A DNA stretch of 64,000 nt from contig OW203747.1 in assembly GCA_934045075.1 (NCBI GenBank), positions 5,352,357 through 5,416,356 on the forward strand, in the 5' to 3' direction. Origin of the DNA: Yponomeuta sedellus. Lineage: Eukaryota; Arthropoda; Insecta; Lepidoptera; Yponomeutidae. The translations under genes were made by a program, and so were the position numbers. The notes beneath the pieces are model-generated. The model was not told the DNA's origin and ran no database searches. It saw nothing but the letters and a program-made list of their open reading frames with translations. Positions 7,505 through 62,250 of the stretch are shown here, piece by piece (the first letter of the stretch is position 1; each line of letters begins with the position of its first letter).

Positions 7505-7826
7505 CGTAATATAATATAATATAATATAATATAATATAATATAATATAATATAATATAATATAATATAATATAATATAATATAATATAATATAATATAAT
7601 ATAATATAATATAATATAATATAATATAATATAATATAATATAATATAATATAATATAATATAATATAATATAATATAATATAATATAATATAATATAAT
7701 ATAATATAATATAATATAATATAATATAATATAATATAATATAATATAATATAATATAATATAATATAATATAATATAATATAATATAATATAATATAAT
7801 ATAATATAATATAATATAATATAACA
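7505..7826. repeat. (ATAAT)n microsatellite, ~320 bp
   Basis: About 64 uninterrupted pentamers ATAAT, flanked on the left by variant units (ATAACATAACGTAACGTA). Long open frames of repeated YYIIL on the minus strand are an artefact. It abuts the LINE-tail fragment at 7828 and probably grew from that element's simple-repeat tail. Confidence 0.95.
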
Positions 7827-7827
7827 T

Positions 7828-7935
7828 AACCTCACACCTGTATCCCAGAGGAGTAGACAATGACCAGGGAGTGCCACTTGCCACGATCCTGACAGATCAC
7901 CTTCGCTTCATCAACGTCCATTTGTCGTTGCATGC
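7828..7935 (-). repeat. LINE 3'-end fragment (CREYSGIQA-type tail)
   Basis: Minus-strand copy of the element whose coding end is at 8412-8663: CCTCACACCTGTATCCCAGA, TGCCACTTGCCACGATCCTG and ACCTTCGCTTCATCAACGT are shared. Confidence 0.75.
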
Positions 7936-15264: not shown

Positions 15265-15425
15265 AATTTTTAATGCACTAACCCGTGCTAAGGATAATTT
15301 TTAAAAACCTATTTAGAGGCTTAAAATTTCACCCATGCCGGGATTCGAACCCGCGACCTCTGGCCATCCGTGCCAGCGCTCTTTCGAACTGAGCCAATGG
15401 GCGACTCACCGGCATCAGTGAAACA
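15265..15425 (-). mobile_element. tRNA-derived SINE family C
   Basis: Antisense tail (AATGCACTAACCCGTGCTAA, AAAACCTATTTAGAGGC) followed by the reversed tRNA-like block with B box GGATTCGAACCC and A box GAACTGAGCCAATGGGCGAC. Confidence 0.8.
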
Positions 15426-19647: not shown

Positions 19648-19840
19648 CGGCCTCTGTGGCGCGGCGGTAGCGCATCTGCCTACCATGCAAGGATTCCCGG
19701 GTTCGATCCTAGGCTGGGGACAAAAAAACCCCAGGTCTTGCATGTTTACATTTTTGTGATATCGTTGTTTCTGGTTCCCACGACACAGGGTATCCTAGTG
19801 TGAGGCCATAAGCAATGTATGTGCTTGTATGTAAATGTTA
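19648..19840 (+). mobile_element. tRNA-derived SINE family D
   Basis: The head has A-box-like TGGCGCGGCGGTAGCGC and B box GGGTTCGATCCTAGG. The body GGGGACAAAAAAACCCCAGG then TTTCTGGTTCCCACGACACA runs to GTGCTTGTATGTAAATG. Only one copy was noticed, so it could be a decayed tRNA gene, but the attached body argues for a SINE. Confidence 0.6.
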
Positions 19841-26039: not shown

Positions 26040-26240
26040 ATCAGATGTCGCTAATACAGAGTGTTGTAAAGAGGTTCGAAATTTCACTGATCCCGGTGAG
26101 TCGCCCATTAGCTCAGTTGGAAGAGCGCTGGCACGGATAGCCAGAGGTCACGGGTTCGAATCCTGGCATGGGTGGAATTTTTACCCTCTATAGGTTTTTA
26201 AAATTGTCCTTAGCACGAGTTAGTGCATTAAAAAAAGAAT
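26040..26240 (+). mobile_element. tRNA-derived SINE family C, sense
   Basis: GTAAAGAGGTTCGAAATTTC precedes the tRNA-like block GTCGCCCATTAGCTCAGTTG...B box GGGTTCGAATCC, then the tail TTTTTAAAATTGTCCTTAGC. The block folds as a cloverleaf: acceptor CCCAT/ATGGG, anticodon stem CTGGC/GCCAG, loop ACGGATA (anticodon position GGA but C at position 33). The odd loop and attached tail make a functional tRNA unlikely. Confidence 0.8.
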
Positions 26241-29289: not shown

Positions 29290-29800
29290 CATAACTGTGC
29301 AAACCTCTTAACACCATTTTTATTTCTTTTTCTATCTATCATTTTCAAATATTTCAATTACGTCACACATTTTTCGATTTCCCTCATTTTTCATCATTAC
29401 TACTTTACCCTTCGACCAGATCTGACTATTTTTCATTTTCAAATATTTCAATTACGTCACACATTTTTCGATTTCCCTCATTTTTCATCATTACTACTTT
29501 ACCCTTCGACCAGATCTGACTATTTTTCATTTTCAAATATTTCAATTACGTCACACATTTTTCGATTTCCCTCATTTTTCATCATTACTACTTTACCCTT
29601 CGACCAGATCTGACTATTTTTCATTTTCAAATATTTCAATTACGTCACACATTTTTCGATTTCCCTCATTTTTCATCATTACTACTTTACCCTTCGACCA
29701 GATCTGACTATTTTACCTGCTTATCCATTTTTATCCAGTTTTTCTGTTTTATTATACTTTTAATCAACAAATAAAACAACACCTGAAGTCGTTCCACTTC
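29290..29800 (+). repeat. Repeat element with internal 4 x 94-bp perfect tandem array
   Basis: The unit (contains AATTACGTCACACATTTTTC and TTCGACCAGATCTGACTATT) begins at about 29340 and recurs exactly every 94 bases (CGTCAC at 29361, 29455, 29549, 29643). The flanks GTGCAAACCTCTTAACACCA and CCTGCTTATCCATTTTTATC match single-unit copies at 38.65, 43.5 (reverse) and 56.2 kb. Confidence 0.9.
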
Positions 29801-32250: not shown

Positions 32251-32384
32251 TAGGCATATTTTTCAAAGCATTAACTGTTAGTTTACTACCCTCGGCAAAA
32301 ATTACAAAAGTTAATTATGAAGTTACGTTCCAAAATAGGTAAATCAATTATTTTATATAAAGGCAACAATATTGATTATTAAAA

Positions 32385-33110
32385 CCTATTTTAGAGGCTA
32401 AAAATTCCACCCATGCCGGAATTCGAACCCGCGACCTCTGGCTATCCGTGCCAGCGCTCTTTCCAACTGAGCTAATGGACGACTCACCGGCATCAGTGAA
32501 ATTTCGAACCTCTTTACACTATTCTCTGTATTACGTACAGGCAGCGACATCTGGCTTAAGTAATTTGCATTACTTGCAGCCCCGAGTACCTACTTTGCAG
32601 TTAGGTTTTACATCGGAATGATATTGCTGTACCCACATGATTATACTATTTTTATTTTTAATGCACTAACCCGTGCTAAGGACAATTTTAAAAACCTATT
32701 TTAGAGCCTGAAAATTCCCAGCATGCCGGGATTCGAACCCGCGACCTCTGGCTATCCGTGCCAGCACTCTTTCCAGCTGAGCTAATGGGCGACTCACCGG
32801 CATCAATGAAATTTCGAACCTCTTTACACTATTCTCTGTATTACGTATAGGCAGCGACATCTGGCTTAGGTAATTTGCATTACTTGCAGCCCCGAGTACC
32901 TACTTTGCAGTTAGGTTTTACATCGGAATGATATTGCTGTACCCACATGATTATACTATTTTTATTTTTAATACACTAACCCGTGCTAAGGACAATTTTA
33001 AAAACCTATTTTAGAGGCTAAAAATTCCACCCATGCCGGGATTCGAACCCGCGACCTCTGGCTATCCGTGCCAGCACTCTTTCCAACTGAGCTAATGGGC
33101 GACTCACCGG
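32385..33110 (-). repeat. Tandem array of SINE family C (310-bp period)
   Basis: The reversed tRNA-like block recurs at 32411, 32721 and 33031, each 310 bases apart. The linking sequence (TTACGTA-AGGCAGCGACATC, CCGAGTACCTACTTTGCAGT, TTAGGTTTTACATCGGAATG) is nearly identical between units. Confidence 0.9.
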
Positions 33111-33320
33111 CGACTCAAAGAGCGCTGGCACGGATAGCCAGAGGTCGCGGGTTCGAATCCCGGCATGGGTGGATTTTTTTTTTATTTAATTAAATTTAAA
33201 TTAAATTTAATGGAATTTTATAAATATAAATTAAATAAATTAAAGGAATGCCTCTAAAATAGGTTTTTAAAATTGTCCTTGGCACGGGTTAGTGCATTAA
33301 AAATAAAAATAGTATAATAT
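33111..33320 (+). repeat. Inverted SINE C copy forming a foldback
   Basis: 33117-33171 (GCGCTGGCACGGATAGCCAG ... CGGCATGGGTGG) is the complement of 33030-33082 across a spacer of about 34 bases. It is followed by an AT-rich stretch and the sense tail ATTGTCCTTGGCACGGGTTA. Confidence 0.85.
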
Positions 33321-35164: not shown

Positions 35165-35525
35165 ACGGATGTTTAAAAACCTATTTAGAGGCTAAAAATT
35201 TCACCCATGCCGGGATTCGAACCCGCAACCTCTGGCTATCCGTGCCAGCGCTCTGCAAAGTAGGTAGTCGGGGCTGTAAGTGATGCAATTTGCTTAAGCC
35301 AGATGTCGCTGCTTGTACGTAATACAGAGAATAGTGTAAAGAGGATCGAAATTTCACTGATGCCGGTGAGTCGCCCATTGGCTCAATTGGTAGAGCGCTG
35401 GCACGGATAGCCAGAGGTTGCGGGTTCGAATCCCGGCATGGGTGAAATTGTCAGCCTCTAAATAGGTTTTTAAATTTGTCCTTAGCACGGGTTAGTGCAT
35501 TAAAAATAAAAATAGTATAAACGGA
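35165..35525. mobile_element. SINE C inverted dimer
   Basis: Reversed tail and tRNA-like half (35168-35254, ending GTGCCAGCGCTCT) meets a sense copy that starts GCAAAGTAGGTAGTCGGGGC and runs through the full tRNA-like block to GGTTAGTGCATTAAAAATAA at about 35510. Confidence 0.8.
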
Positions 35526-36430: not shown

Positions 36431-36453
36431 CGGTTCAAAAAATGTGTAAAGTA

Positions 36454-36482
36454 CAGCTTGTCTATTAAGTCATGAAATTAAA
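36454..36482 (+). repeat. Left terminal inverted repeat of the 36.5-kb transposon
   Basis: 29 bases identical to the complement of 38611-38639, preceded by TA. Confidence 0.92.
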
Positions 36483-36672
36483 TAAGGGCAACCCTGTCTA
36501 ACAACTGGCAACTCCTATTACGTAGTGGCCACACTGTATACAGTGACCAAAAATTTTGATCTTTGCAGGACAAACCAACTATTCAAAGTAAAAAAAACTC
36601 TAAGTATTTTATTATTGTAGATAAAAATAATTGATTTAACATTAATTTCAACATCAATTTGAAGATAATGAT

Positions 36673-37464
36673 TTAATCACTATCTTCAAATTCCAAATAT
36701 TCTACATCCAAAGAGATATTTTCATCACTAGAATCATCAGCAACACTGCTGTCATCGCTAGTATCTTCGGTTATGCGGATTATTAAATCATCTACGTCTT
36801 GATAAAGGGTCCTTCCTCGTTCGTAATATTCATTTTCCAGATCTACGACATGACGGCAGCAGTTTTTCCATGTCTCAGCAGTGATGTTGTTAAAGGCCTC
36901 TTCAGTTAGCTTCTTCACATCCCGGGAACCAACATTGTGTGCAGCAACATTTTGTTTGACTTGAGCCCAGATGAGCTCAATAGGGTTCAAATCGCAGTGG
37001 TACGGTGGAAGCCGCACCACGGTATGCCCGTTTTCTCCCAAAAGCTCATCGATTGCATAGATTGGGCGAGGCTTATTTTTTTTCACCAAATTTAGCAAAT
37101 TCGGCTTTCTTAGTGTGGGATCAAACTGAATATTATTTTCCATAAGCCAAAGTTTGATTTCATCTACCCGGGATTGTGAGGTAGGAGCCTTATTTGTGGT
37201 CACGTTATGGTATGGAGCATTATCCATGACAATTATTGAAGGCTCGTGTAGGTTCGGTATAAGCTTTTCTGAGATCCACTTTGTGAAATTGTGCGCATTC
37301 ATCTCAGAATGGTAATCTTCCAGTTTATTTTTGCCAGTAAATATAAGCAAACAGTTTGGGACAAAGCCTTTTTCACTGCCGGCGTGGACGATTATGTACC
37401 GCTTGCCTTTAGATATATTTTGTGTAACGCCATCGACATTTATAGACTGCCAACATTTTTTGAC
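36673..37464 (-). CDS. Transposase exon 3 (DDE catalytic domain, C-terminus)
   Basis: The exon begins after TTTTTTCAG with VKKCWQSINVDGV and ends EFEDSD-stop. It carries the second catalytic Asp (VMDNAPYH, residue ~271) and the catalytic Glu (DLNPIELIW, residue ~353), with 81 residues between them. The C-terminal ~35 residues are very acidic (EDTSDDSSVADDSSDE). Phase 0 junction with exon 2 after SSYK. Length 263 codons plus stop. Confidence 0.9.
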   Translation of the reverse strand, partial: VKKCWQSINVDGVTQNISKGKRYIIVHAGSEKGFVPNCLLIFTGKNKLEDYHSEMNAHNFTKWISEKLIPNLHEPSIIVMDNAPYHNVTTNKAPTSQSRVDEIKLWLMENNIQFDPTLRKPNLLNLVKKNKPRPIYAIDELLGENGHTVVRLPPYHCDLNPIELIWAQVKQNVAAHNVGSRDVKKLTEEAFNNITAETWKNCCRHVVDLENEYYERGRTLYQDVDDLIIRITEDTSDDSSVADDSSDENISLDVEYLEFEDSD

Positions 37465-37555
37465 CTGAAAAAATAATAAAAACTGTTTTTATAATTATTT
37501 AAAGCGTCCTAACATAACCATTAAAATGTAAAATAAATATTAACGAAGATGTTAC

Positions 37556-37992
37556 CTTATATGAGGAGTGAATGTAGCTCTCATCTAGGTAAATTACATC
37601 TTTTCGTAACTCTTCTGGCAAATTTCTGTTTCTTCTTAGGATTCCTAAATACTCTTCTCTTTTAGCTGCTTTGTGCGGTTGTTCTATAAGAGCCTTTCTG
37701 TCTGTTGAACATCTCTTATAAGAGAATCCAATCGCTCTTAAAATTTTACGCAGAACTTCTAGACTGCAATCAAAATCTAGATCTGTTTTTGCAATCACTT
37801 GCAATTTTCTCAAGGTAGGTACTTCTTTCCGCACCGTATAAAAAAAGTGAACTTTTTGCCTAAGTGCACATAAAGTGAAATCATCCATTTCTTTTTTAGG
37901 ACGGCCGGGTCTGTGTTTACCAGGAGTTTCAAATATTCCGTTATTTGTGTACCCTTCATCCACAATGCGCCTAACCGAACTTTCAGATTTAC
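37556..37992 (-). CDS. Transposase exon 2 (HTH end, GRP motif, first catalytic Asp)
   Basis: The exon follows CTGTTTTAG and is joined to exon 1 by the split codon G+GT (Gly). It completes a helix-turn-helix (TGKSESSVRRIVDEG), then KHRPGRPKK, an AT-hook-like GRPR linker typical of Tc1/mariner transposases. Near its end is DVIYLDESYI, the first catalytic Asp (~181). The donor is AAG|GTAACA at 37555. 437 nt, no stop. GTG at 37963 is not needed as a start. Confidence 0.9.
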
Positions 37993-38297
37993 CTAAAACA
38001 GAAAAAAACTAACAATCGAATCTATCACAAAAAATATTTATTTATTATTTATTATTAAATATTTATTGTATTTTTTCAGTTAAGAAACAATTGATTTTGA
38101 TTTAGAAGTTCTATTGTCCAGAACAATGATGCTAAAGTATCAAGATGGTTTGGTCAGACTATAACGAAGTCAGGAAGGTCTCCAATATAACCTATAAACA
38201 TGCAATGTAAACAATGCTGTTTTTGACGCAGCATAAAATATTAAGTCAAATTTTAACTTACGATAAGACTTCAAATAAAGGGAGCACTCTTACGTAC

Positions 38298-38430
38298 CCG
38301 TCATAGCTGCTGTTCTAGCATATACATCGTCCAAATCCGATAAAATGCATCCAGCTTCGTGTTCCAATAAACATCGCTGAAAAACTTTGAAAATCACTTC
38401 CCGAGCTCCACTTCGAATTGTTTTTTTCAT
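38298..38430 (-). CDS. Transposase exon 1 (start codon, N-terminal DNA-binding region)
   Basis: ATG at 38430-38428 starts MKKTIRSGAREVIFKVFQRC and runs to TAAMTG. The donor is G|GTACGT at 38297. The exon supplies the first helices of the DNA-binding domain. With exons 2 and 3 the protein is 453 residues, longer than the usual ~340 of Tc1/mariner. Introns of 305 and 91 bases are unusual for this superfamily. Confidence 0.85.
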
Positions 38431-38610
38431 TGTAGATTATATTTACTTTATTTAACCATTCAAATTCAGATGAATTCAAACCGAAACAAAAAACAATTTC
38501 AAAATAATAGAGTCCACAACTCGATCTCGGTGACAGATTGTTATAAGGGTTTTTTTTTTGGTCATATTAGTGTTGCCAGAGACATAGGCATAAATATTTA
38601 TTACCAAGCA

Positions 38611-38639
38611 TTTAATTTCATGACTTAATAGACAAGCTG
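38611..38639 (+). repeat. Right terminal inverted repeat of the 36.5-kb transposon
   Basis: Exact complement of 36454-36482, followed by TA. Confidence 0.92.
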
Positions 38640-38644
38640 TACAC

Positions 38645-39399: not shown

Positions 39400-40560
39400 T
39401 ACAGAGTAGAAACACAGGGAACTTAGAATATTCAAATTGAGTTTAATAATGTAACTGAAACCGGCAGGTCTGTGAAGGACTATGCCTAGTTTACTTTGGA
39501 CTTTGGGAAAACTGGGTCAAGTATAAAATGAGGTATTCTATTTCAATTTACGAGAAAAGATCCGGAGACTTTTGCTCAAAGATCAGAAATCTGCACAAAG
39601 AGTAAGCGGTATTTTAAAGTAATGAAACTTTAAGCAATCTGCTATTTGACACGTATCAAATTTGACGCGATAAATGAATATTTCCTATAGTATTTAACGT
39701 AAGAAACTGAAATATATTGATTTTGCTAAGTAAGTATGCAGGATGGCTGCGAAATTTGCAAAGTAAAAAAATTTTTTCCTCGTTTAATTCGTAACGGCGA
39801 AAACGCTATCCGCCATCTTGAAAGCATCTAAAGTATGTAAACAAACATCTTTCAGCCAGAGCCAGTGGACATTGATTATTATAGGACTTACATCAAAGTG
39901 ACCTTCACATAAATACACCCGTGTTTCAATTGATAAAGACTCGGGGTCTCTTTTGGCAAGTTTGAGCCAAGTTTTTCGAATGTTAATTTAACTGGGTACA
40001 CGAATCCACAACTTCCCGGGGGGTCTTTATTGGCGTGTGTTTTCATTCTCGAACAATGCAATAATGATAATTGGTATATTTTGGATGTAAATTCGATGAA
40101 ATCATGGTTGCGTTGTTGTTATTTCACTATGCTCAGAGATCACTTACAGAAAATTGAATGTCAAACTTTGTTTACAATTTTCTGGACTTCAAACCATAGA
40201 CAAAACGAGCTGACCGCGTTTTTGGCTGTTTAGGAAAATAAAGTTTTAAAATATATTTTTATGTTGCTTTTAGGTCCTCAAAAAATATACTAAAATATTT
40301 TTTGGTCTAATGGAAGAGTTATTTACCGTTTGAGACTTACTTGAAAAGAGAGCCAAATAGCGGATTAAACCAGTTCAACTTCAGTTGCAAGAAGGCTTAT
40401 ATATCTTATTCTCAAACTGAGTGGAACTGAGTCACAGTGACCTTGATAAGAACAAGATAATCTAATCTTTAAAAATGTCATATACCAACAACTTCGTTTG
40501 CATGGGAATTGCTTCATGAGAAGCGTCTTAAAGTGATAATATGTGCTGAACACCTGCCAC
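39400..40560. other. Non-coding, nothing recognised
   Basis: Unique-looking AT-rich sequence with no supported exon or repeat. Confidence 0.4.
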
Positions 40561-49072: not shown

Positions 49073-49531
49073 ATGATGGCACAAACAACCATGCATACTG
49101 TGTATGGTCCCTGTTTAATAAAACGTACACAAAATTTGGTCCAACGGGTGCAAAACGCCTGTGCTCGGTACTGTTTCCACATTCCGCCTCGTACTCATGT
49201 GACTCCCTTCCTTAATGGCGCGAACATGCTAAAAATGGAAGCGAGACAGAAACTTCAGTTAGCAACATTATTGTTTGGAGTTATAAAAACGGGTGCGCCT
49301 CCTTACCTATTAGAAAAACTTACCTGGAGACAATCGCGTCGAGCGGAAGGGGTGAGAACAATTACTGCACCGTTCAGTGTACCGAAACATAGGACAGCAG
49401 CCTTTCGCGGCAGTTTTAGGTACGCAGCAAGCAAATGCTGGAACAACATACCACCGCCATTACGAAACAGTAAAAATGAATCCAGCTTCAAGTTCCATTA
49501 CAAGGAATACCTCATGGAAAATCAAAAATAA
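49073..49531 (+). pseudogene. C-terminal part of a non-LTR retrotransposon ORF2
   Basis: An uninterrupted 152-codon frame: LVQRVQNACARYCFHIPPRT, then HVTPFLNGANMLKMEARQKL, ASKCWNNIPPPLRNSKNESS and a stop after EYLMENQK. The 'Q-QN-C-R' helix followed by 'I--R-HVTP' and the terminal WN-IP-P-LR is the post-reverse-transcriptase region of insect CR1/Jockey-like LINEs. The catalytic YADD core is not present, so this is a 5'-truncated copy. An intact frame suggests it is fairly young. The nominal ATG is probably not a real start. Confidence 0.7.
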
Positions 49532-57605: not shown

Positions 57606-57842
57606 TTAATGCACAAACCCGTGCTATGGACTTTAAAAACCTATTTAGAGGCCAAAAACACAGACGTGCGTAATACAGAGAGTGTTGTAAAGAGATTCAA
57701 AATTTCACTGATGTCGGTGAGTCGCCCATTAGCTCAGTTGGGAGAGCGCCGGCACGGATAGCCAGAGGTCGCGGGTTCGAGTCCCGGCATGGGTGGAATT
57801 TTTGGCCTCTAAATGGGTTTTTAAAATTGTCCATACCAAATT
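57606..57842. mobile_element. SINE C inverted dimer inserted in a Helitron-like element
   Basis: A reversed tail (AATGCACAAACCCGTGCTAT...TTTAGAGGCC, 57609-57655) is followed by a sense copy with the tRNA-like block 57719-57795 and tail. The Helitron sequence CCATACCAAATTTTATTAAA resumes at 57832, after CCATACCAATTTTTTTT on the left. Confidence 0.8.
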
Positions 57843-60174: not shown

Positions 60175-60365
60175 AACCTATTTAGAGGCTAAAAATTTCA
60201 CCCATGCCGGGATTCGAACCCGCGACCTCTGGCTATCCGTGCCAGCGCTTTTTCCAACTGAGCTAATGGACGACTCACGGCATCAGTGAAATTTCGAACC
60301 TCTTTACAATATTTTCTGTACGAGTATTACGTGTCCTTAGCACGGGTTAGTGCATTAAAAATAAT
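60175..60365 (-). mobile_element. tRNA-derived SINE family C
   Basis: AAGAAACCTATTTAGAGGCT, CCCATGCCGGGATTCGAACC and TTCCAACTGAGCTAATGGAC, then a sense tail GTCCTTAGCACGGGTTAGTG at 60332. The opposite-facing tail again suggests a dimer. Confidence 0.75.
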
Positions 60366-61610: not shown

Positions 61611-61964
61611 ACAGAACTGAGACGTGTTATATTAATAACTTCCACACAAAACAATCGCCTTATAAATATCTCCGAAAATTAAATCCTGAATATAATTTCT
61701 TCGGTATCGATAATTAAATAATTTAGAATTAAATTGATAATCAAATCATTCAAACCCATCATTTTCTATATTGTAAGTCGTACCGTGGAGCACAGGCCTT
61801 CTCTCATAGAGAGAAAGATAGCACTCTCAAGCGCTAAGGTATGTAAACACATCAGGTACTCAGGTTTCCTCACGATTTATTCCATCACAGTTAACGTTAA
61901 CGTAAAATGTAACGTATTGCCACTACTAATTGCGACTACAAAAATGTACGTAACTTTCGATAAC

Positions 61965-62250
61965 TTTGGTTCTCTTCGACAGAGAACCAAAGTTATCGAC
62001 ATAGCTCAGAGAATCAGCAAGCTGAAGTGGCAGTGGGCTGGCCATATCTCGCGAAGAACCGACAACCGTTGCAGTAAACGTGTTGTTGAGTGGAGACCGC
62101 GACTCGGCAAACGTAGTGTAGGACGCCCTCCGACCAGGTGGGATGATGATCTGCGTAAAACTGCAGGCAGATGCTGGATGCGGCAAGCTGAAGACAGTAC
62201 GCTATGGCGCTCATTAGGGGAGGGTTATGTCCAGCAGTGGACTACATAAT
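61965..62250 (+). pseudogene. RTE-like LINE 3' coding end, open frame
   Basis: The frame reads AQRISKLKWQWAGHISRRTD, RVVEWRPRLGKRSVGRPPTR, WDDDLRKTAGRCWMRQAEDS and ends GEGYVQQWTT-stop. It is the basic C-terminal region that follows the reverse transcriptase in insect RTE-type elements. No RT motif is upstream, because sequence before about 61960 is SINE A-like (GAGAGAAAGATAGCACTC, CGATTTATTCCATCACAG). The intact frame suggests a recent truncated insertion. The tail GCCTGAAGAAGAAGAAATG follows. Confidence 0.75.

Follow-up and report, generated by a model that had tools for sequence, protein, structure and literature searches.

The window analysed here is a 64,000-nucleotide stretch of the Yponomeuta sedellus genome (assembly GCA_934045075.1, contig OW203747.1, positions 5,352,357 to 5,416,356 of the forward strand), and it contains a complete DNA transposon that is most probably a full-length member of Sailor, the DD82E group of the IS630-Tc1-mariner infraclass, combining ordinary transposase chemistry with an additional SAP-like module. 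The element and its borders, in window coordinates, are:

36454..38639, minus strand: complete transposon, probably Sailor-type, 2186 bp, with perfect inverted ends and four further full-length host copies
36452..36453, unstranded: TA target-site duplication, low-coordinate side, TA being found beside 5/5 copies in five contexts
38640..38641, unstranded: TA target-site duplication, high-coordinate side, likewise beside 5/5 copies and with an unoccupied-site comparison
36454..36483, unstranded: terminal inverted repeat (TIR), 30 nt, gene 3' side
38610..38639, unstranded: TIR, 30 nt, gene 5' side

Element boundaries and target site

An earlier sequence-only reading of this DNA had described a complete transposon with perfect inverted ends and TA flanks, and both the arms (36451-36483 and 38610-38642, 33 nt, 100% match) and the comparison with other copies bear this out. 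Protein search of the host assembly (G000; 657.5 Mb, 57 contigs), in which copy counts are lower bounds, revealed at least four further full-length copies (L009, L010, L011, L012), each flanked by TA. All five copies begin with CAGCTTG and end with CAAGCTG between two TA dinucleotides, the bases beyond TA vary, and one TIR of L012 carries a single mismatch. Because this comparison fixes the boundary, the TIR is 30 nt long (one more than the 29 bp given previously), TA is the duplication and the match of the outer G and C is due to chance. A duplication of 4 bp (GTAC) would suit the window copy and L011, but it fails in L009, L010 and L012, and was rejected in favour of TA. The search for empty sites that the sequence-only reading had proposed was also productive: when the flanks of L011 are joined minus one TA, the product aligns without interruption to another repeat copy, in L019, which has one TA at this point (177 nt, 89%), and the L011 insertion thus has a related unoccupied site. 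The same joining for L012 matched window positions 39636-39860 and L016, in both cases with flaws at the junction.

Transposase gene and catalytic residues

The transposase gene is predicted to comprise three exons, which join to 453 codons with GT-AG at both introns:

38298..38430, minus strand: exon 1, codons 1-44 plus 1 nt
37993..38297, minus strand: intron 1, 305 nt, phase 1, GT-AG
37556..37992, minus strand: exon 2
37465..37555, minus strand: intron 2, 91 nt, phase 0 after codon 190, GT-AG
36673..37464, minus strand: exon 3 including the stop codon
37583..37585, minus strand: catalytic D181 (YLDES), invariant in alignment A1
37222..37224, minus strand: catalytic D271 (VMDNA), at least 90% conserved in A1
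36976..36978, minus strand: catalytic E353 (NPIELIW), invariant in A1 and aligned to the NPIE of Sleeping Beauty

Three donors were tried near intron 1, only one of which yields the long frame (453 amino acids), the other two giving 46 codons, and a single acceptor and a single second intron passed the GT-AG filter. We infer that both introns are spliced; intronless relatives in the same assembly (L025, L026, L027) show an unbroken alignment over codons 44/45 and 190/191, that is, through both predicted junctions, in agreement with the gene structure first proposed.

The catalytic triad D181/D271/E353 and its spacing of 81 residues between D271 and E353 (DD81E) were confirmed by residue count and by A1, an alignment of 55 sequences. 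Tc1/mariner enzymes have 34-41 residues between the second Asp and the third acidic residue, and a different third catalytic residue at such a distance was considered and rejected: since E353 is invariant and lines up with the Glu of the Sleeping Beauty NPIE motif, no room is left for another acidic residue at 34-41, and D305 (spacing 33) is Asp in 7/29. The long spacing had been regarded as unusual, a judgement that does not hold for elements of this kind. Among the 120 closest homologs listed of 1261, spacing could be scored in 114 of 121 rows including the window, and it was 81 in 103, 82 in 10 and 75 in one, within the DD78E-DD111E range published for Sailor.

Membership in the Sailor group

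Sailor was published in 2021 as a DD82E superfamily, and the main text of its description gives the spacing range DD78E-DD111E, the motifs I/VVYLDET, VIIMDNA and HCELNPIEL, target-site duplications that are predominantly TATA, TIRs that usually begin with GT or CC, and, for arthropods, elements of 1799-4408 bp, TIRs of 18-61 bp and transposases of 334-676 amino acids; the extra residues are counted there as two inserts of 13 and 36 amino acids, and the hosts include Deltaproteobacteria, bacterial elements being 1379-1437 bp long and mostly flanked by TATA duplications (PMC8533490). The window element shares with Sailor the catalytic motifs (VIYLDES, IIVMDNA and HCDLNPIEL, close but not letter-perfect), the spacing, the sizes of element, TIR and transposase (2186 bp, 30 bp and 453 amino acids, all inside the arthropod ranges), the insert site (about 47 extra residues against L062 between the second Asp and the Glu, in one block) and Deltaproteobacterial relatives. 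The earlier lead to Sailor therefore proved sound on motifs, spacing, insert and homology to Sailor-like transposases, and the suggestion that the element might found a new group is not supported, its spacing of 81 lying inside the published range and being the commonest among its closest relatives.

These relatives span insects and bacteria. All named organisms among the 120 homologs listed of 1261 are Lepidoptera. In a second clade, found with L027 as query (120 listed of 551), the named members include Lepidoptera, the sawfly Neodiprion and the leafhopper Macrosteles, and 84 of the 86 sequences scored have a spacing of 82. Scanning prokaryote contigs returned 40 loci, 31 of which read as Sailor-like genes, mostly of Deltaproteobacteria/Desulfobacteraceae type with some from Legionellales, Chlamydiae, Planctomycetota and others, and mostly in metagenome bins; their best match has an E-value of 2e-58 (relative to the candidate stretches only) and their spacing is 82 in 26 of 27 scored. 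In the spacing count that included the L027 clade and these bacterial loci, both anchors were found in 224/266 sequences, with L051, L055, L056 and L058 left out. A search from L057 (Desulfobulbus) gave 82 in 119/119 scored rows (120 listed of 2400). One locus in a Bathymodiolus gill symbiont record (L035) shares NPIELIW with the insect copies and shows a spacing of 83, unlike the other bacterial copies read, and is possibly host DNA in the symbiont assembly.

The ends of the element differ from those described for most of Sailor, and they could be taken, with the introns, to mark a separate superfamily. Sailor is described as mostly having TATA duplications and GT or CC ends (PMC8533490), whereas the window element has TA and CAG in 5/5 copies, a combination that also fits L013, L014, L015 and L028. 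TATA on both sides was seen in none of the host loci with resolved ends among the 15 searched; of these 15, L016, L017 and L026 showed no convincing end pair. At L024 the end pair lacks flanks of TA type, and at L025 and L027 no clear duplication accompanies the pair. The window element also differs in its two introns, the word "intron" occurring in the Sailor paper, as far as its main text goes, only in the reference list (PMC8533490). We nevertheless regard a separate superfamily as very improbable: the insert, the motifs and the 81-82 spacing are the same, homology to the Sailor-like bacterial transposases is continuous, and 81 lies within the published range. Because the published wording is "predominantly" and "usually", the TA/CAG pattern marks a variant of Sailor rather than an exclusion from it. 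Among bacterial loci, ends were found at 6/10 searched, four with TATA on both sides and two (L029 and L031) with TATA on one side only, and L040 measures 1386 bp counting both TATA; no ends were found at L043, L048, L049 and L057 among these ten. Bacterial "TATA" might alternatively be parsed as TA plus an element-terminal TA.

The same genome carries a second Sailor subfamily (L019-L023, on G000 contigs C28, C4, C19, C22 and C3), seen as five equal-scoring matches with 48% identity to the window element and GC-rich ends (GAGCGCGC). TA and GAG ends fit four of these five copies, L020 being ambiguous, and the subfamily is probably another recently active family.

The IS630 model (NF033545), which lacks the insert, matches window residues 39-278 (whole-protein E-value 2.5e-24) below its curated cut-off (86.3 versus 100 bits), and Tc1/Sleeping Beauty (DD34E), also without the insert of about 47 residues, shows 16% identity to the window protein over the structural match. 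A tree built from the core alone, with the insert removed, put five IS630-type outgroups together (support 88) on very long branches and attached them with support 31.

A predicted SAP-like module between the second Asp and helix alpha2

The extra residues lie between the second Asp and helix alpha2:

37057..37197, minus strand: inserted module, residues 280-326, 47 amino acids by alignment to L062, absent from L062 and L063
37072..37170, minus strand: putative helix-extended-loop-helix (HeH/SAP-like) core, residues 289-321, from Pfam HeH, predicted models and structural matches

The block is missing in the IS630-type relatives L062 and L063 (DD34E and DD36E), the IS630 model breaks at it, and the outgroups L065-L067 align loosely across the region. 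Its first helix was considered as the canonical alpha2, because Tc1 alpha2 also reads like WL.EN.I, and rejected, as profile alignment sets alpha2 of Sleeping Beauty on window residues 327-340 approximately (profile 330-343); a single-sequence match to Sleeping Beauty (328-368) agrees with an alpha2 beyond the insert.

Pfam HeH/Ish1 matches to the insert are mostly weak, yet no families turn up more often in the Pfam search than these two, and they occur in 0/29 of the shuffled control. The best structural matches of the predicted fold are the SAP domains of MANF/CDNF, and a basic residue stands at the loop-helix junction in 29/29. On the best reading of these models, the insert would be a compact SAP/HeH-like module that leaves the catalytic core unchanged by the long spacing. 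Alternatively, it might be a mere helical spacer or a protein-protein module for dimerization or synapsis, one that does not touch DNA and whose likeness to SAP/HeH is of the chance kind that small folds can show. We consider this unlikely, though it deserves to be kept in mind, given the predominance of HeH and Ish1 and their absence from the shuffles, the constant basic residue, and the retention of the insert from bacteria to insects with a spacing of nearly always 81-82. The main text of the Sailor description reports no domain found in the insertion between the second Asp and the Glu, whereas we recognise it as HeH/SAP-like (PMC8533490), and we found no earlier description of a SAP-like Sailor insert in the literature searched, outside supplements and subscription papers.

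Copies, age and mobility

The five copies are 98.70-99.63% identical pairwise, and the full frame is kept in three of them (window, L009, L010); L012 carries a frame shift and an early stop, and codon 353 of L011 is a stop codon. Relative to the five-copy majority there are 19 non-synonymous changes (two of them stops, and one shared change entering twice) and 8 synonymous ones, a pattern that looks neutral and would be expected if copies are not under selection once inserted. Residue 152 is Lys in the window copy and Ile in its four sister copies, at a position conserved to at least 90% in A1. The two broken copies, the neutral-looking changes and Lys152 would all suit an immobile relic or a host-domesticated gene. 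We find this improbable in view of the perfect ends, TA duplications at five places, near-identity of the copies, related unoccupied site and three full frames. Of the recent or present activity initially proposed, the first part stands: five near-identical copies with TA duplications support recent transposition. Present activity does not follow, given two broken copies and Lys152 in the window copy. The mutation rate of butterflies is near 2.9e-9 per site per generation, and with a mean pairwise difference of about 0.9% this suggests an age of the order of 1.5 million generations, recent but not necessarily current. In the collections searched nothing supports a viral or plasmid vector: viral contigs gave one weak 28-residue match (1/21 candidate stretches) and phage and plasmid records gave zero matches with P0001 as query.

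Introns

Intron 1 recurs at identical position and phase in the more distant L019, where it was read directly, and breaks in the matches near codon 44 suggest it in L013-L017. Intron 2 is present in L009-L012, and breaks in the matches point to it in L014-L016 as well. The near relatives L013 and L017 lack it, and among loci read it is confined to the window's subclade; its carriers and the window form one clade with support 100 (tree without L012). The introns look as if they were gained in nested steps in the window's lineage. As L025 and L026 are placed among intron-1 carriers with low support (68-70), an alternative is that intron 1 was lost, or gained a second time. Introns, once counted as an oddity of this element, reportedly have a precedent in Tc1-like elements, in an article on mollusc elements known to us by title.

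Other features of the element and its surroundings

37892..37906, minus strand: GRPKK AT-hook-like motif, residues 74-78
36676..36771, minus strand: Ser/Asp/Glu-rich acidic tail, residues 422-453, low-confidence and likely disordered in the homolog modelled
36608..36613, minus strand: AATAAA polyadenylation-signal-like hexamer, about 60 nt past the stop

GRP[KR] occurs in the first 130 amino acids of 15/238 homologs, 11 of these among the 17 closest, and in 0/31 bacterial relatives. The acidic tail (16 Asp/Glu in the last 40 residues) had likewise been called odd but is common, since 64/78 homologs of at least 400 amino acids from the first search have at least 10 Asp/Glu there.

Elsewhere in the window there are seven tRNA-Ser(GGA)-like calls (15328-15404, 26102-26175, 32406-32482, 33026-33102, 35371-35446, 57723-57796 and 60197-60273), with Rfam tRNA matches at six of these places and at one further place, and one tRNA-Gly call at 19649. 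Because several tRNA-Ser-like calls overlap short repeats common to other loci, they are probably a tRNA-derived short interspersed nuclear element rather than tRNA genes. Tandem repeats comprise a 94-bp unit at 29332-29714 (4.1 copies, 99% match), of which the transposon's right flank is a diverged relative, a TAATA pentanucleotide array at 7507-7829 (64.6 copies, 99% match) and a 310-bp unit at 32381-33111 (2.4 copies, 95%) that contains tRNA-Ser-like sequence. Open frames at 49073-49531 and 61734-62249, for which a Pfam search gave no match, look like ends of non-long-terminal-repeat retrotransposon proteins.

Proposed mechanism and implications

Insertions in hAT/Hermes and RAG1 are larger and lie directly before the Glu-bearing helix, unlike the SAP-like module of the window element, which follows the second Asp and precedes alpha2; common to both is a location inside the RNase H-like domain. 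In hAT/Hermes and RAG1 the interrupting module handles DNA, and insertion at TA requires the strongest target deformation, the stabilising factor being not entirely clear, according to a review (PMC6900584). By analogy with Tc1/mariner, a transposase dimer would pair the ends, presumably bound by the N-terminal helix-turn-helix region, and its RNase H-like D181/D271/E353 site would cut the element out and paste it into TA, duplicating TA. A SAP-like module beside the second Asp would be well placed to grip flank or target DNA; it may touch DNA, most likely the flank or the target near TA, and steady the sharply bent DNA.

Taken together, we tentatively propose that Sailor gained a SAP-like DNA clamp already in bacteria, at a site unlike that of other insertion-domain transposases, that this clamp touches DNA of the flank or the target and may govern which target is chosen, insect subfamilies having moved between TATA and TA, and that the window's lineage gained two introns in nested steps. 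For a transposon superfamily of wide distribution, this would turn the "insertion of unknown function" into a concrete module that can be tested. With full frames in three copies, TA as its defined target and introns of nested distribution, the element also lends itself to studying how DDE transposases come by domains that handle DNA and how mobile genes acquire introns.
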